A stretch of 11,183 nucleotides of DNA, taken from the NCBI RefSeq assembly GCF_000284415.1, contig NC_017059.1, positions 2,109,537 through 2,120,719 on the forward strand, in the 5' to 3' direction. Under the pieces are notes generated by a model. The model was not told the origin of the DNA. It made no database searches and saw nothing but the letters and a program-made list of their open reading frames with translations. How positions within the stretch are numbered: position 1 is the first letter of the stretch; each line of letters begins with the position of its first letter. The stretch is from Pararhodospirillum photometricum DSM 122 (GTDB lineage: Bacteria; Pseudomonadota; Alphaproteobacteria; Rhodospirillales; Rhodospirillaceae). Made by a program: the position numbers and the translations under genes. Positions 3,113 through 11,183 of this stretch are shown piece after piece.

Positions 3113-3334
3113 ATGTCATCGAGCGTGACGAGGCGGGTGAGCAAGCATCGAGCAGGCCTGCGGGCTGCCGGGATGCGCCCGATTCAGATTTGGGTACCCG
3201 ACACCCGGCGCCCCGGCTTTGCCGAGGAATGCCGCCGGCAATCGGCCCTGACTGCCGAAAGCGATGCCGCCGACAAAGACCTGCAAGACTTCATGGAGGC
3301 CGCACTTGCGAAGATGGAGGGCTGGACAGAGTGA
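3113..3334 (+). CDS. MazE-like antitoxin (DUF3018 family)
   Basis: A 73-residue protein with the signature RPIQIWVPDTRRPGFAEE at 22-39 followed by CRRQS, characteristic of DUF3018 antitoxins paired with MazF-type toxins. The N-terminal part is basic and likely binds DNA. The C-terminal part (about 45-73, acidic and ending in EAALAKMEGWTE) is the likely toxin-neutralising segment. The ATG at 3113 has a strong purine-rich ribosome-binding site (AGGAAGGA, 3097-3104). Its stop overlaps the toxin start as GTGA, typical of translational coupling that ties toxin to antitoxin synthesis. Autorepression through the upstream palindrome is likely but inferred. Base composition is like the host core genes, unlike the AT-rich gene that follows. 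Confidence 0.87.
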   Translation: MSSSVTRRVSKHRAGLRAAGMRPIQIWVPDTRRPGFAEECRRQSALTAESDAADKDLQDFMEAALAKMEGWTE

Positions 3335-3654
3335 AGCGCGGGGATCTGGTCACGATTGCCCTGCAAGGGGACTTCGGAAAGCCACGCCCCGCTCTGATTA
3401 TCCAGTCCGACCAATTCCACCAGAGCGCCACCCGCGCGGTCCTTTTGCTGACCGGCACCCTGGTTGACGCACCTCTGATCCGGCTGATGCTCGACCCGAC
3501 ACCGGAAAACGGGCTGTTGAAGCCTTCTCAAATCATGATCGACAAGCCGATGACGGTCCCCGTGACAAAGATCGGCCCGGGGTTCGGACGGGTCGATGAC
3601 GGGACCTTGCTCGCTGTCAACCGAGCTCTGGCGGTATTCCTGGGGTTTGCCTAG
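3331..3654 (+). CDS. MazF/PemK-family endoribonuclease toxin
   Basis: A 107-residue protein starting at GTG 3331, in frame and overlapping the antitoxin stop by four bases. The frame is open further back to 3190, but that part only shadows the antitoxin gene. MazF toxins are small cytosolic RNases that cut mRNA or tRNA at short sequences when the labile antitoxin is lost. Visible family marks are the N-terminal KRGDLVTIALQGDFGKPRPALII (residues 2-24, with the conserved Arg19-Pro20), the strand RAVLLLTGTL, and GLLKPSQIMIDKPMTVP at 61-77, which matches the L-x-x-P-S segment of MazF. It ends in ALAVFLGFA, a normal family ending, so it appears complete. Its TAG stop is also the first three bases of the 18-nt direct repeat at 3652. 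The cleavage site is unknown. Confidence 0.88.
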   Translation: MKRGDLVTIALQGDFGKPRPALIIQSDQFHQSATRAVLLLTGTLVDAPLIRLMLDPTPENGLLKPSQIMIDKPMTVPVTKIGPGFGRVDDGTLLAVNRALAVFLGFA

Positions 3655-3669
3655 CAGGCTATTGAAAAA
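3652..3669 (+). repeat. Left 18-nt direct repeat flanking the AT-rich gene
   Basis: TAGCAGGCTATTGAAAAA matches TAGCAGGCTGTTAAAAAA at 5115-5132 in 16 of 18 positions and in the same orientation. The pair brackets a segment whose composition differs sharply from its surroundings, as expected for insertion or for recombination between repeats. The first three bases are the mazF stop codon. Confidence 0.75.
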
Positions 3670-3711
3670 CCCTATGCCTTTCCCCGAAGCCGGAGAGGTC
3701 AACCTGAAACA

Positions 3712-5067
3712 TCAAATCCCTACAAAAATATTATGATTGCCCTTACTTTCATCTGGCCCTTGATATGCCCTCAGTCTTTCGGCAATTTCAATAAGAGATA
3801 CTCTCGCCACTTTTACAGAACAACTTCTAATCTCAAAAAGCTGCCTCAGTCTATCGTTGTTCGCTCCATGCAACGTTTTTGATCTACATTCATTATAAAT
3901 CAGTTGAATAAGGTTGTTTAAGGTGCGCGAAGGGAATCGCGTTACTTCTTCATCTCGGTTGGTGCCTGTTAAGTGCGCAACCATGCTTGTTATACCAGGA
4001 CACTGTCCTCCACCGGATAGTACATCTAGGCAGGTTGCTAACTTTGCTACCGCAATGGCATCATTTGATTCGCGACACCCCTCACCAAACCAATCCAGTG
4101 CGGTAACCCAGCGATTGGCGAGCTTGGGGTGTTTGTAATTTGATGGATCGAGAACCCCCCCAATAATTTCGCCAAAACCACTGATAATATTATTATTTTC
4201 TTTTAATAGCGCATCAATTTGATTTGGCGACAGAATGCAAAAGATCCTCCCCTTGGATATTACACGAGACCATCGGCGATCGTTTTTTTCTATTAGAGTA
4301 TACACCATTCTCGGATAAAATCGTTCCCCATGAATTAACTGCTGGCAGAAACAATCTTCTCGACCAACAGCAAGCGATATGGCGTCAAGAGAAGATTTTG
4401 CGATTATTCTAGCAAATTTTTCAGAAATTTTTTCTTCGTAGCCGCGAGTAATAACCTTAATTATAGCAGATCCCTCTAAAAGAAAATTGTAAATTTCCTC
4501 AGAATCTCTGCATAACTCGATATTTTCATGGTTTTCATTAATTTTTTTATTAATAAATTCTTTCCATTGGCTGTTTTCTTTTGAGCTTATTGGGATATCA
4601 ACGGAATCCAACCAATGAAGACGATTAAATACTGTCACTGGGCCGATTGAGAACGGAGCCCTCTCCTCTACACCAATGGTATGCGCAGGAAAATAGTGGG
4701 TGTACTCTTGCGACATAAGAATGAGTCTCTCATGAACAAGAGATCTAAATCTTGGTATAATCTTTCCTTGATCACCTTCATCGAAACCTAAAAAATCGCC
4801 AGCAGCGTGCATATTTGCGATGATTTGGCGAATAATATTTGCGTATTCTTTAATTTCAATCTTAGGAGATTCGGGAGGAAGATTGTTATAGAGGATCTTT
4901 GATATGCTCCATATCGCGTTAAGTGACGACTGATTAAAGTATCGTACAGATCCATTTTCTGCGTGGGTAAAATTTGGAAGACCATTTTCTTTCCACCGAG
5001 GTTTATCGCCTCTATGGACACGATCCAACTCATCAACAAGAGATTTAAGATCAGATGCTAGTGTCAT
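3712..5067 (-). CDS. Putative ApeA-like HEPN-domain protein, candidate RNA-targeting defence protein
   Basis: A 451-residue protein with no assigned relative that I can name. The last third resembles ApeA-like HEPN domains: a helix with ALDWFGEGCRESNDAIA at about 323-339, AKLATCLDVLSGGG, then LIQLIYNECRSKTLHG at 386-401. The latter contains Arg395-x4-His400, the R-x4-6-H motif of HEPN ribonucleases. Residues 1-280 form a separate region with RERAPFSIGPV-like beta structure near 134-144 and no motif I recognise; it could be a sensor. No membrane segment or signal peptide is evident. The ATG at 5067 has an AGAGGG ribosome-binding site. The gene is visibly AT-rich, with AGA and AAT/ATA codons unlike all its neighbours, and is bracketed by direct repeats, indicating transfer. 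It converges on mazF with 57 nt between stops. A role in phage defence is inferred from HEPN/ApeA families only. Confidence 0.8.
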   Translation of the reverse strand: MTLASDLKSLVDELDRVHRGDKPRWKENGLPNFTHAENGSVRYFNQSSLNAIWSISKILYNNLPPESPKIEIKEYANIIRQIIANMHAAGDFLGFDEGDQGKIIPRFRSLVHERLILMSQEYTHYFPAHTIGVEERAPFSIGPVTVFNRLHWLDSVDIPISSKENSQWKEFINKKINENHENIELCRDSEEIYNFLLEGSAIIKVITRGYEEKISEKFARIIAKSSLDAISLAVGREDCFCQQLIHGERFYPRMVYTLIEKNDRRWSRVISKGRIFCILSPNQIDALLKENNNIISGFGEIIGGVLDPSNYKHPKLANRWVTALDWFGEGCRESNDAIAVAKLATCLDVLSGGGQCPGITSMVAHLTGTNRDEEVTRFPSRTLNNLIQLIYNECRSKTLHGANNDRLRQLFEIRSCSVKVARVSLIEIAERLRAYQGPDESKGNHNIFVGI

Positions 5068-5099
5068 CTCATCCCTCTCAAAATCGCATCTCTCGAAGT

Positions 5100-5128
5100 C
5101 AAATAAGAGGCCGATAGCAGGCTGTTAA
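5100..5128 (-). promoter_or_regulatory. Possible promoter of the HEPN gene, using the right repeat
   Basis: Reading leftwards, TTAACA (5128-5123, five of six matches to the -35 consensus) lies inside the right-hand direct repeat, and 17 nt further is TATTTG (5105-5100, three of six matches to the -10 consensus). A start near 5093 would leave a leader of about 25 nt before the ATG at 5067. The -10 is poor, so this is tentative. Confidence 0.25.
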
Positions 5129-5132
5129 AAAA
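5115..5132 (+). repeat. Right 18-nt direct repeat flanking the AT-rich gene
   Basis: TAGCAGGCTGTTAAAAAA, the partner of the copy at 3652-3669. The AT-rich composition stops here; from about 5135 the sequence returns to host-like GC-rich DNA leading to the tRNA-Arg terminator. It lies 47 nt upstream of the HEPN start codon. Confidence 0.75.
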
Positions 5133-5239
5133 GTCTCTCGGATCGTCGGCGGTCTCGAATTCCAAAAGAGATCGTGACCCTTGGACGCTGATCCGGGCCG
5201 GGGAAAACGCTTCGCCCGCTGGCTACATTGTGGCTACAT

Positions 5240-5266
5240 AAAAAACGAAAGACCCCACCAAGGGGG
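5240..5266 (-). terminator. Rho-independent terminator of tRNA-Arg
   Basis: Reading leftwards from the tRNA, a stem of CCCC (5265-5262) and GGGG (5256-5253) around a TTGGT loop is followed by TCTTTCGTTTTTT. It begins about 20 nt past the tRNA 3' end, the usual place. It appears intact, so the acquired segment downstream did not disrupt tRNA termination. Confidence 0.65.
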
Positions 5267-5286
5267 CCATGCGTGCTTTGAGAGAG

Positions 5287-5363
5287 TGGCGCGCCCTACA
5301 GGATTCGAACCTGTGACCTACGGCTTAGAAGGCCGTTGCTCTATCCAGCTGAGCTAAGGGCGC
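5287..5363 (-). tRNA. tRNA-Arg(TCT)
   Basis: A 77-nt cloverleaf with 3' CCA encoded (5289-5287). The acceptor stem pairs GCGCCCT (from 5363) with AGGGCGC, with G as discriminator. The D-loop region reads TTAGCTCAGCTGGATAGAGCA. The anticodon stem ACGGC/GCCGT holds the loop CTTCTAA, giving anticodon TCT, which reads AGA and AGG. The T-arm is ACAGG-TTCGAAT-CCTGT. The adjacent AT-rich HEPN gene uses AGA codons that are rare in the host-like genes. The tRNA 3' side faces the accessory segment, a common position for integration, but no duplicated tRNA end or integrase was found. Confidence 0.97.
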
Positions 5364-5418: not shown

Positions 5419-5715
5419 TTAGGAAATCTTCTGAAAAGCGAAATTGTCGGCATACGACTTGGGCTGCGGGGACCGGACCTGGGGATCACGCACCTGGGCC
5501 ACGTACCCTTTGCGCTTGGCATAGGCCAGGGCCTCGGCCTTGGAGGCGAAGCTCAGGCGAATCTGACGGTTGACGTCTCCCGAACCGACCCACCCCATCA
5601 AGGCATCGTTGAGCGGGCGCTCGGTCGGCTCGAACTCCAGAACCCACTGACGCGTGTTGCCTTTGCCCGACTGCATGGCGGTTTTGGCCGGCTGGTAAAT
5701 GCGCACGCGAACCAT
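5419..5715 (-). CDS. NDUFS4-family NADH dehydrogenase (complex I) accessory subunit
   Basis: A 98-residue protein of the ETC complex I subunit conserved-region (NDUFS4, 18-kDa) family, an accessory subunit on the peripheral arm of complex I in mitochondria and alphaproteobacteria, near the NADH-oxidising N module. Visible family features are the start MVRVRIYQPAKTAMQSGKG, then WVLEFEPTERPLNDALMGW at 24-42, the polar SGDVNRQIRLSFASKAEALAYAKRKG (45-70), and the near-terminal PKSYADNF (86-93). There is no transmembrane segment, as expected for a matrix- or cytosol-facing subunit. The ATG at 5715 follows an excellent ribosome-binding site (AAGGGGAAGGGA). The gene sits between two tRNA genes on the same strand, 72 nt after tRNA-Pro and 56 nt before tRNA-Arg; shared transcription with them is possible. 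Other complex I genes are not in this window. Confidence 0.93.
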   Translation of the reverse strand: MVRVRIYQPAKTAMQSGKGNTRQWVLEFEPTERPLNDALMGWVGSGDVNRQIRLSFASKAEALAYAKRKGYVAQVRDPQVRSPQPKSYADNFAFQKIS

Positions 5716-6124: not shown

Positions 6125-6559
6125 TCAGTGGCGCCCCGCCTTGCGCCGACGGTTCCATTCGGCGATGGCGCCATCCGGCATTGGCTCCGGGCTGCTCATT
6201 GCAAATCGAAAATCCCCGTCGCCCATCGACGCAGCTTCCGGTGGGGGCGTCGGGGCGCCCATGGCTTTGAGCGCGGCCACGTCGGCCATCACCTGGGCCA
6301 CTTCGGCGGGCGCAACGCTCTTCGCGTCCAGGCGCTTCTCGAGGTGCCGCGCCGCGAAGTAAAAGGCAGCCACACCCCCAAGAAGGCCGGTCAACCACTC
6401 GGGCACCAGGGCGTAGACCCGCATGGCCTCCGCGAAGCCGATCGGGTCCAAGGGCGCCCAGGCCATCACCGCCAGCACCCCGAAAGCCATAAAGGGGCGC
6501 GGCAAGCGGTTCAGCGCAAGCCCGCCCGCGCCCGCCCGGCGCCGGCCGCGGCGCCACAA
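6125..6559 (-). CDS. 3-TM holin-like protein (GTA holin family), orphan and N-terminally short
   Basis: The frame encodes up to 144 residues. From about residue 17 it reads like the membrane part of the 3-TM holins used by gene transfer agents and related phages: NRLPRPFMAFGVLAVMAW at 17-34, DPIGFAEAMRVYALVPEWL at 38-56, and GLLGGVAAFYFAARHLEKR at 58-76. A polar tail ends in IAEWNRRRKAGRH. Such holins form inner-membrane lesions that let lysis enzymes out. Family members usually have several dozen residues before the RPF motif; here a stop at 6572-6574 limits the frame and the first 16 residues are low-complexity G/R/A. The only starts are TTG 6559 and ATG 6490, neither with a convincing ribosome-binding site. 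No endolysin, terminase or other phage gene is nearby. It is most likely a phage or GTA remnant. The 5' end lies antisense to the TonB-like gene. Confidence 0.6.
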   Translation of the reverse strand: MWRRGRRRAGAGGLALNRLPRPFMAFGVLAVMAWAPLDPIGFAEAMRVYALVPEWLTGLLGGVAAFYFAARHLEKRLDAKSVAPAEVAQVMADVAALKAMGAPTPPPEAASMGDGDFRFAMSSPEPMPDGAIAEWNRRRKAGRH

Positions 6560-6956
6560 GCCCCGCAGACCTCACCGGCCCCGGCAACCGAAAACACCGG
6601 ACCCGCCGCCCCCGGCCCCTCGGGTCCCACGGGCGAGGGGCCGCCAGCCCCCGGGGAACGCCCCGGCCCCGGCCCCGACCCCGCCCCCGACCCCGGCGGT
6701 GATCGAGTGCCGCAAACCCAGCTATCCCGCCGCCGCTCGTCGGGCGGGGGAGAGTGGGGTGGTGGTCCTGGCCTTGCTGATCGACACGGCGGGGGCGGTC
6801 ATTGACCAGCGCGTCGAGCGCTCCAGTGGTTTCCCGCGCCTTGATGCCGCGGCCCTGGAGGCTCTGGGGCGCTGCCGCTTTCAGCCGGCCACCCTGGACG
6901 GCCGGCGCGAACCGACGTGGGCACGCCTGCGTTATGTGTGGAAACTGGAGGATTAG
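6423..6956 (+). CDS. tonB: TonB-like protein: C-terminal domain and linker only, 5' end apparently lost
   Basis: TonB spans the periplasm and transmits ExbB/ExbD energy to outer-membrane transporters. The last 85 residues are a TonB C-terminal domain: KPSYPAAARRAGESG (the YP motif), VVVLALLIDTAGAVIDQRV, ERSSGFPRLDAAALEAL and a WKLED ending. A proline-rich linker precedes it (NAPAPAPTPPPTP). The membrane anchor that TonB needs at its N-terminus is absent: the first 30 or so codons (6423 to about 6512) are just the antisense of the holin gene, and ATG 6423 has no ribosome-binding site. Homology probably begins near 6516. The upstream linker also reads more naturally in the frame one base behind (PAPAAAPQAPQTSPAPAT), hinting at a frameshift near 6660-6710. 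It is probably a pseudogene or a truncated product; its stop lies 2 nt before exbB. Confidence 0.65.
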   Translation: MASAKPIGSKGAQAITASTPKAIKGRGKRFSASPPAPARRRPRRHKPRRPHRPRQPKTPDPPPPAPRVPRARGRQPPGNAPAPAPTPPPTPAVIECRKPSYPAAARRAGESGVVVLALLIDTAGAVIDQRVERSSGFPRLDAAALEALGRCRFQPATLDGRREPTWARLRYVWKLED

Positions 6957-6958
6957 AC

Positions 6959-7741
6959 ATGTGTCGCGTCTCGTGGCGGAGGCTCCTTCGCGGGGGAGGA
7001 GCCTTGGGGATCGCGCTGATCGGGGGGGGGAGTCCGGCCTGGGCCGAGCCGCTCGTGCCCCTGGCGGACCCACTCCCTCCCGCCCCTCCGGCCGAACGCT
7101 TGGCCGCGCTTTGGGTCCAGGGCGACGGGGTGGCCCTGGGCACCTTGATCGTGCTGCTGGCGATGTCGGTGGCGAGTTGGTCCGTCATCGTTGTGCGCAC
7201 ACTGGGCGGAATCCAGCAGGCCCGGCAGGCAGGGCGGGTCGCCCGCTTCTGGGCAGGGGGCGGGCTTGCGGCCCTGGTGCCAGGCTCCCCCCAGGCCGCC
7301 TTGGTCGAAGCCGCCCAGGAGGCCGACGCCTTGTTCCGCGCGGGCCAGGTCACGGGGGTCGATCGCCACACCTGGCTGGGCCTCGCGCTTCATCGCGTGA
7401 TCGCCGAAACCCAAAGCCGGGTGCAAGAAGGGCAGACCCTCCTCGCCACCGTGGGGGCCACGGCGCCTTTTGTCGGGCTGTTTGGCACGGTGTGGAGCAT
7501 TCATCGGGCCCTGACCGCCTTGGGAGGCACCGTCCCGGCCTCCCTGGAGACGGTGGCGGGGCCGGTGGGCGAGGCCTTGATCATGACGGCCCTTGGCCTC
7601 CTGGTCGCGGTCCCGGCGGTGCTGGCCTACAATGCCCTGATCCGCTCGGGCAAAAACACGATCGACCCCTTGCGTCTGTTCGCCGCCGATATCGAGAGCG
7701 CTCTTTTGTCCGGGCGATGGCCCGGGGCGGGCAGGCCATGA
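6959..7741 (+). CDS. exbB: ExbB, TonB-system proton-channel subunit with signal peptide
   Basis: The 260-residue ExbB-type protein forms, with ExbD, the inner-membrane proton-driven motor for TonB. Residues 1-29 look like a signal peptide (RRLL, a hydrophobic core GALGIALIGGG, cleavage after AWA), a form found in several alphaproteobacteria. TM1 is at about 58-79, TM2 at 160-180 with LLATVGATAPFVGLFGTVW, and TM3 at 204-226 with GEALIMTALGLLVAVPAV. Glu205, Thr210 and Thr177 correspond to the functional E. coli residues Glu176, Thr181 and Thr148. The cytoplasmic loop at 82-150 is complete. I chose ATG 6959 because GGAGG lies 7 nt upstream and it opens the signal peptide; the frame is open to 6917. 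It follows tonB by 2 nt and overlaps exbD1 by ATGA. It looks functional although its tonB is not. Confidence 0.93.
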   Translation: MCRVSWRRLLRGGGALGIALIGGGSPAWAEPLVPLADPLPPAPPAERLAALWVQGDGVALGTLIVLLAMSVASWSVIVVRTLGGIQQARQAGRVARFWAGGGLAALVPGSPQAALVEAAQEADALFRAGQVTGVDRHTWLGLALHRVIAETQSRVQEGQTLLATVGATAPFVGLFGTVWSIHRALTALGGTVPASLETVAGPVGEALIMTALGLLVAVPAVLAYNALIRSGKNTIDPLRLFAADIESALLSGRWPGAGRP

Positions 7742-8157
7742 TCGACGAGCCGGTCCATGACGCCCCCGAGCCCATCGCCACCTTAAACACCACGCCCCTG
7801 GTGGACGTGATGCTGGTCTTGCTCATCATCTTCCTGATCACCGTACCGGTGGTCGCGACCCAGGCCCCCGTGCGTCTGCCCCACGCGACCGCAAGCCCGG
7901 TCGAGGAGGCCAGGGACAGCGTTAGCGTGGTGGTGCATCGGGACGGGCGGGTCAGCGTGGCGGGAGCCGAGGTGGCGGGGCCGGCCCTGAGTGCCGCCCT
8001 CCAGGAGGTGGCGGGGCGCCAACCGGTGCCCCCGGTTCATGTGCGCGCCGACGCCGAGGTCCCCTATGCGGCGGTGGGCCGGGTGCTGGCCGCCTGCCGA
8101 CGCGCCGGCCTCAGCCGGATTGGCTTCATCACCCAGCCCGCGGAGCCCGGCGCATGA
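7738..8157 (+). CDS. exbD: ExbD, TonB-system proton-channel subunit, first copy
   Basis: A 139-residue ExbD/TolR-family protein: a short cytoplasmic tail, one membrane helix (about 21-40, LVDVMLVLLIIFLITVPVVA) and a periplasmic domain. LNTTPLVDVMLVLL carries the essential membrane aspartate, here Asp23 (Asp25 in E. coli), which is thought to shuttle protons inside the ExbB pentamer. The periplasmic part includes VVHRDGRVSVAG and VHVRADAEVPYAAVGRVLAACRRAG, typical of the family. It starts at ATG 7738, overlapping the exbB stop as ATGA, so translation is likely coupled. The next gene also overlaps by ATGA. Two exbD genes after one exbB is a known arrangement for specialised TonB systems. Confidence 0.93.
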   Translation: MIDEPVHDAPEPIATLNTTPLVDVMLVLLIIFLITVPVVATQAPVRLPHATASPVEEARDSVSVVVHRDGRVSVAGAEVAGPALSAALQEVAGRQPVPPVHVRADAEVPYAAVGRVLAACRRAGLSRIGFITQPAEPGA

Positions 8158-8684
8158 CTCCTGACCTGTTCGAGGGCGACCCCGACCCCAGGCCCCTCGG
8201 CGAGATGAACACCACGCCGCTGATCGACGTCTTGCTGGTGTTGCTGATCATGATCATCGTCACCCTCCCGGTCCTGCCGCACCTGACCCCACTGGGGCTT
8301 CGGGCCGCGCCCGGCGCCAGCGCGTCCGATGCGGTCCGGGTGTGGGTGGATGAGACGGGCACGGTGTTCTGGCAGGGGGAGGCCCTCCCCGACCGGGCCA
8401 GTTTGGACGCCCACCTCGCCGCCCTGGTGGCCCAGCCCCATCCGCCCCCGCTTCATTTTGATGCCGATGGCCGGGGAGCGTTTGCGCCGGTCATGGCGGT
8501 TCTGGCCGCCGTCCAGCGCCACGGCGTGCCGTCTTTTGCCGTGACCGGCACCGAGCGGTTTCTGGACCGGGGAGGGAGACGCCCGGCCCCCCCCCAGGAG
8601 CCAGGGGCGATCACCCCTGGGAGGTCTCCCGCGGCTCTTCGGTCAAGCTCCGGGCCTCGGGCCGACCGTGACGGAGTTCCTTGA
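8154..8684 (+). CDS. exbD: ExbD, TonB-system proton-channel subunit, second copy with unusual C-terminal tail
   Basis: A 176-residue ExbD/TolR-family protein. MNTTPLIDVLLVLLIMIIV at 18-36 holds the single membrane helix with the conserved Asp25. The periplasmic domain includes RVWVDETGTVFWQGEAL and APVMAVLAAVQRHGVPSFAVTGTERF. The family normally ends near Phe136; here 40 more residues follow (RGGRRPAPPQEPG and onwards), rich in Pro, Arg and Ser and without family resemblance. This tail runs through a nested hairpin and overlaps the convergent trmJ gene by 74 nt (8611-8684), so the native stop may have been lost. It starts at ATG 8154, overlapping the exbD1 stop. It differs clearly from exbD1 in sequence, so the two may form a heteromeric stator. 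Confidence 0.88.
   Translation: MTPDLFEGDPDPRPLGEMNTTPLIDVLLVLLIMIIVTLPVLPHLTPLGLRAAPGASASDAVRVWVDETGTVFWQGEALPDRASLDAHLAALVAQPHPPPLHFDADGRGAFAPVMAVLAAVQRHGVPSFAVTGTERFLDRGGRRPAPPQEPGAITPGRSPAALRSSSGPRADRDGVP
8574..8630. terminator. Nested hairpin at the exbD2/trmJ convergent ends
   Basis: An outer stem GGGAGAC (8574-8580) with GTCTCCC (8624-8630) encloses an inner perfect stem CCAGGGG (8601-8607) with CCCCTGG (8614-8620). It straddles the trmJ stop codon (8611-8613) and lies in the exbD2 tail. Its position suggests a bidirectional transcript end, but neither side has a T-run, so a Rho-independent role is uncertain. Confidence 0.4.
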
Positions 8685-11145: not shown

Positions 11146-11155
11146 GAAAAGGGCA

Positions 11156-11183
11156 GGCTGGGGAGGCGGGCCTCCCCAGACCC
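11156..11183 (+). repeat. Palindromic dispersed repeat, copy 3, cut by the window edge
   Basis: These 28 nt are identical to 2391-2418, with the palindrome at 11158-11179. The flank GGAAAAGGGCA resembles the flank of copy 2 read on the minus strand. Read leftwards, the hairpin is followed by CCTGCCCTTTTCC, so this copy could terminate a leftward gene beyond the edge and insulate cimA. Confidence 0.85.

Follow-up and report, generated by a model that had tools for sequence, protein, structure and literature searches.

A mobile-element-borne HEPN protein of the unnamed family phrog_38039 in Pararhodospirillum photometricum, with a probable role in defence

A stretch of 11,183 nucleotides from Pararhodospirillum photometricum DSM 122 (NC_017059.1, positions 2,109,537 to 2,120,719; hereafter the window) encodes a 451-residue protein that belongs to phrog_38039, a sequence cluster to which PHROGs v4 attaches no function. 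We propose that it is a HEPN endoribonuclease that works as a single protein, is carried by mobile elements and probably acts in defence through shutdown of the infected cell. The open reading frame runs from 3712 to 5067 on the minus strand, begins with ATG and has no internal stops; GAGAGGGATGAG, just 5' of the ATG, was judged by eye to be a plausible ribosome-binding site. The gene is present in one copy in the genome, whose sequence is one contig of 3,876,289 bases. An original prediction, made from the letters of this DNA, had read the protein as a possible ApeA-like HEPN ribonuclease with a sensing N-terminal region, and its open reading frame and both quoted peptides were confirmed in the translation: ALDWFGEGCRESNDAIA corresponds to residues 323-339 and LIQLIYNECRSKTLHG to residues 386-401, with R395 and H400 at the residues it had named. 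In the full-length relatives, as judged from alignments and models, the predicted C-terminal HEPN bundle with its invariant R-x4-H site is joined to one kind of N-terminal region.

The HEPN fold proposed originally is supported by structure prediction, which was mostly good throughout the whole 451-residue protein and gave a pLDDT (predicted local distance difference test) of 90 when residues 295-446 were modelled alone. The predicted HEPN helical bundle spans residues 314-434 (3766..4128, minus strand), with helices at 314-332, 336-350, 355-367, 383-399 and 411-434 and strands at 374-377 and 380-382; the predicted structure contains the four-helix bundle of HEPN proteins. Structural matches (VIA) were to HEPN chains, with HEPN-MNT-type toxins among the best.

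Taken in one sequence alone, the R-x4-H motif is no evidence, because the query holds one occurrence where 0.9 is expected from composition and at least one appears in 62% of 20,000 shuffles of it. Among homologues, as the original prediction had proposed to check, both residues proved invariant: in alignment A1 (95 rows, the query included), position 395 (codon 3883..3885, minus strand) is R and position 400 (codon 3868..3870, minus strand) is H in all 94 rows that have letters there, in keeping with the R-x4-6-H pattern of HEPN proteins, and the remaining row, P0055 (400 residues), has a gap at the motif. Both belong to the 22 columns identical in all lettered rows, counted over A1 columns with at least 80 letters. 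Two later searches added 25 proteins (P0096-P0120), many just 20-26% identical over the aligned part, and R-x4-HG is kept in 22 of them; it is absent from P0096 (231 residues, changed directly before the motif), P0116 (a 177-residue N-terminal piece) and P0117 (390 residues, end missing). Further upstream, E329 and R332 are fixed in all 95 A1 rows and E333 in 94, a spacing of E-x2-R as against the E-x3-[KR] of many HEPN families. In other HEPN proteins the R-x4-6-H site is described as cleaving RNA without a metal (PMC3710099).

The family assignment comes from a match to the phrog_38039 profile (E-value 1.1e-69) in which query residues 30-442 of 451 align with profile positions 27-448 of 457. 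Eight of ten further relatives match the same profile over most of their length, the other two in the C-terminal part only. The query matched no family in Pfam (E up to 1), NCBIfam or PADLOC, and the Pfam matches listed for the 95 A1 rows (25 of 30 families) include neither a HEPN family nor, specifically, HEPN_Apea (PF18739). The ten further relatives likewise matched no HEPN family, HEPN_Apea included, nor did P0005 and P0084, which are publicly called HEPN; in the organism's own genome, PF18739 found no match at E 0.001. A few family members bear the automatic names "HEPN" or "Apea-like HEPN". Because the matches listed in the profile searches include no HEPN or ApeA family and phrog_38039 as the only strong one, membership in ApeA is unsupported. 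As described by Gao et al. 2020 (via PMC7699616 and PMC10952713), ApeA also joins an N-terminal region of about 300 residues to a C-terminal HEPN domain, but beta strands are said to make up most of ApeA-NTD1 (PMC3710099), whereas residues 1-290 here are predicted to be alpha/beta, and PF18739 is unmatched by the query or its relatives among the matches listed. Of the original interpretation, then, the HEPN fold, the conserved R and H and the mobile or defence surroundings of many relatives stand, and the ApeA label gives way to the unnamed HEPN family phrog_38039. Nor is the pairing of the two regions undescribed, as had been suggested, since it is already public as that unnamed family; the kind of protein, a HEPN ribonuclease, is also already known. 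We found no functional test of a phrog_38039-type protein in the literature. With MauJ (PF17419), two of the ten relatives, both phage-borne, give matches of 22.1 and 18.2 bits, short of the curated cut-off of 28, while the query itself has no match to it in the Pfam scan; the weak matches sit in the HEPN part (residues 326-411 of the L001 protein and 343-444 of the L012 protein), and MauJ is perhaps related to HEPN.

The N-terminal region, residues 1-290 (4198..5067, minus strand), is the presumed sensor or lock. Its predicted secondary structure comprises ten helices and eight strands, with helices followed by an alpha/beta part, and alignments A1 and A4 show a conserved [IL]GPV stretch, in which G142 is invariant, together with W152 and W168. 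No domain was found in it with Pfam, NCBIfam or PADLOC. A profile of this region alone retrieved 29 proteins, 20 of them new, the named ones coming from Sinorhizobium, a Hyphomicrobiaceae bacterium and Pseudohoeflea, mostly at 20-26% identity over the aligned part. R-x4-HG recurs in 18 of these 20, the exceptions being the incomplete P0116 and P0117, and no case of the N-terminal region joined to another effector was seen in this profile search, which covered proteins of about 157-499 residues. Other observations count against a fixed two-part plan: nine A1 rows begin at query residue 53 or later, and P0096, P0097, P0098 and P0115 are also short predicted proteins, P0097 (158 residues, 13 member sequences) being almost HEPN alone and P0098 having 167 residues. 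P0097, P0098 and the shorter A1 rows, which have the HEPN part with little or no N-terminal region, could be genuinely short genes, products of faulty gene calls or decayed copies.

Relatives of the gene often lie in mobile elements. A family member occurs in 5 of 398 genomes of the phylum, this one included, and the best organism-named matches, at 46-49% identity, are from Thauera, Trinickia, Paraburkholderia and Burkholderia gladioli. A viral collection holds eight loci with relatives: Mu-type portal, Mu F-like and terminase genes adjoin the relative in L012, and a gpA terminase and a holin gene (L007), a tail completion gene (L011), a helix-turn-helix regulator and an M78 peptidase gene (L005) and an integrase-like gene (L010) lie near theirs. 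Annotated phage records gave two matches, vB_AbaSI_5 and an unannotated 6-kb scaffold; in vB_AbaSI_5 the order is minor capsid gene, relative, 33-residue open reading frame and DUF2213 gene, and the relative is annotated "HEPN domain-containing protein". A genome collection yielded 21 loci, none of them in Gram-positive hosts. Six of these (L016, L017, L018, L020, L021 and L022) have conjugative-element neighbours in common, identified as TIGR03746, RAQPRD, TIGR03747, TraD and PilL genes in L016 and a TIGR03752 gene in L021; L016, L017, L020 and L022, which have identical match scores and neighbour clusters in common, are probably one element. Integrases occur at L026, at L028 and, with scores under the NCBIfam cut-offs, at L013. 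L019 has phage tail-fibre and lysozyme genes, and PADLOC, run on ten hand-picked neighbours of which six matched, identified PDC-M68B, AbiEi and PDC-S26 at L014, L030 and L032. At L015, L023, L024, L025, L027, L029, L031 and L033, where neighbours were read by eye only, no mobile or defence gene was recognised. Plasmids of Sinorhizobium carry distant relatives too, one of them flanked by a transposase gene on each side and another with a transposase gene 2.5 kb away. The neighbourhood survey envisaged in the original prediction thus found mobile or defence genes beside many relatives, as raw locus counts.

AbiV, Csm6 and the HEPN-MNT toxins have other partners and architectures than the 451-residue protein, Csm6 having a CARF sensor and HEPN-MNT a separate antitoxin. 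Tha, of Staphylococcus aureus prophages, is as described (PMC11087260) a single phage-borne protein with a C-terminal HEPN R-x4-H (R265NSIMH270) and an N-terminal part without a recognised domain; H270 is needed for defence, and ribonuclease action follows once a phage tail protein appears. The likeness is drawn from its description, and Tha differs in having 301 residues, an overlapping antisense inhibitor gene (ith) and a low-confidence N-terminal model, in contrast to the mostly good prediction obtained here. Also likened by description only, DS-11 of DefensePredictor (PMC13092281) is a one-protein HEPN defence that changes in catalytic HEPN residues abolish, but it has CBS domains where residues 1-290 have no Pfam domain. 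PD-T4-2, PD-T4-5 and PD-T7-3 are listed as HEPN defence systems (PMC10952713), a likeness again by description only.

By analogy with HEPN RNA cutting, Tha and DS-11, the likeliest role of the protein is defence by a single gene, through arrest of the infected cell. It would dimerise through the HEPN part, and the N-terminal region would hold the ribonuclease off until infection by a phage or competing element, whereupon the HEPN part would cut RNA and growth and phage production would stop. We infer that the N-terminal region is the infection sensor, and known HEPN systems offer two models for the trigger: phage structural proteins, as for Tha, or small nucleotides, as for ApeA, which according to the title of a 2026 preprint is activated by deoxydinucleotides. 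A bolder version, in which the conserved [IL]GPV region is a new type of phage sensor that directly binds a conserved protein of the phage head (portal, Mu F-like or capsid) and so unlocks the HEPN ribonuclease, strikes us as very unlikely; were it true, phages that have the gene in their own head cluster would need some means of sparing themselves.

Other roles for the family were weighed against defence. The protein could be a toxin that mainly keeps its element in place by addiction, kept in check intramolecularly, by the N-terminal region, or by a partner not seen here, with phage defence secondary. The HEPN-MNT-type toxins among the best structural matches would suit such a role, as would the gene's position as element cargo in many loci. 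However, no recurring partner emerged among open reading frame clusters found in at least three loci, a survey in which partners confined to two loci were not looked for, and the recurring clusters are restricted to like elements (the conjugative elements of L016-L018 and L020-L022; the phages of L007, L008 and L010). The exception, cluster 2, spans unlike elements, and its scanned members are integrase-like. We consider a primarily element-keeping toxin unlikely.

A role in the service of the phage or conjugative element itself, whether as a ribonuclease that attacks host RNA or a rival element late in infection or in processing the element's own RNA, is suggested by L001 and L012, where the gene is co-directional within the head cluster, beside a minor capsid or Mu F-like gene. 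Yet the gene opposes the direction of its phage neighbours in L007 and L010, and the family also occurs in integrating conjugative elements, on plasmids and in this window, where no phage genes were recognised; we judge this role distinctly unlikely. That the protein is a regulator, with a HEPN part that binds RNA or nucleotides without catalysis, seems extremely improbable, given that R-x4-H is invariant in every A1 row with letters. The defence reading is the most likely one. The gene is cargo of phages, prophages and integrating conjugative elements, and it would have reached this genome by horizontal transfer, beside a tRNA-Arg gene.

The gene is a compositional outlier among otherwise ordinary neighbours in the window, with a GC content of 0.40 (0.34 at third positions); the window outside 3655-5286 has 0.67, and two other window genes have third-position values of 0.80 and 0.86. 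Among 41 genomes (its own, one of the same genus and the rest from the family and order; 30 are at least 90% complete with little contamination), it is present in its own only. In G383, the genome of the same genus, the bases aligned to window positions 3270 and 5231 are separated by 9 bases, and the intervening window stretch (3271..5230), which holds most of a MazF-like gene and the HEPN gene, has no counterpart at that place. The MazE-like (PF11455) and MazF-like (PF02452) pair at 3113-3654, convergent with the HEPN gene, is intact here, and G383:C43 (L051, about 8515-8663) keeps just part of the MazE-like gene. G383 may have lost the mazF part, while for the low-GC HEPN part a gain in this genome is the best reading. 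The gene is flanked by insertion-sequence-like ends in the same orientation, AGCAGGCTATTGAAAAA (3653..3669, plus strand) and AGCAGGCTGTTAAAAAA (5116..5132, plus strand). They belong to a set of five genome copies of AGCAGGCTRTTRAAAAA, allowing one mismatch, that share one orientation (the others at G000:C1:2843627, 2855412 and 1522895), and a reversed control pattern has zero copies in the genome. One non-flanking copy precedes an open reading frame with a weak IS4/5-type transposase match, and the copies are likely leftover insertion-sequence ends. The tRNA-Arg (TCT) gene adjoins the insert at 5287..5363 (minus strand). At 5220-5239, on the right border of the segment that G383 lacks, TGGCTACAT was read by eye twice, with the insert on one side and the tRNA-Arg terminator on the other; it may be the remnant of an integrase site.

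Elsewhere in the window lie an NDUFS4-type gene (5419-5715) and an ExbB/ExbD-type cluster (6423-8684) with, by eye, a TonB-like C-terminal domain at its start. A GC-rich palindromic repeat, GGCTGGGGAGGCGGGCCTCCCCAGACCC, forms an inverted pair at 2387-2497, recurs at the window end (11147-11183) and is perhaps an intergenic repeat family.

For phrog_38039, an unnamed phage protein family, these results predict a fold, point to a likely active site and supply an evolutionary setting. The HEPN effector type is in itself unsurprising. The presence of the same gene in conjugative elements, prophages and phages makes the family a compact case of one protein that would sense an invader and yet stay quiet in its carrier, and our proposal predicts that intact members block phages and that this ability is gone when H400 is changed.
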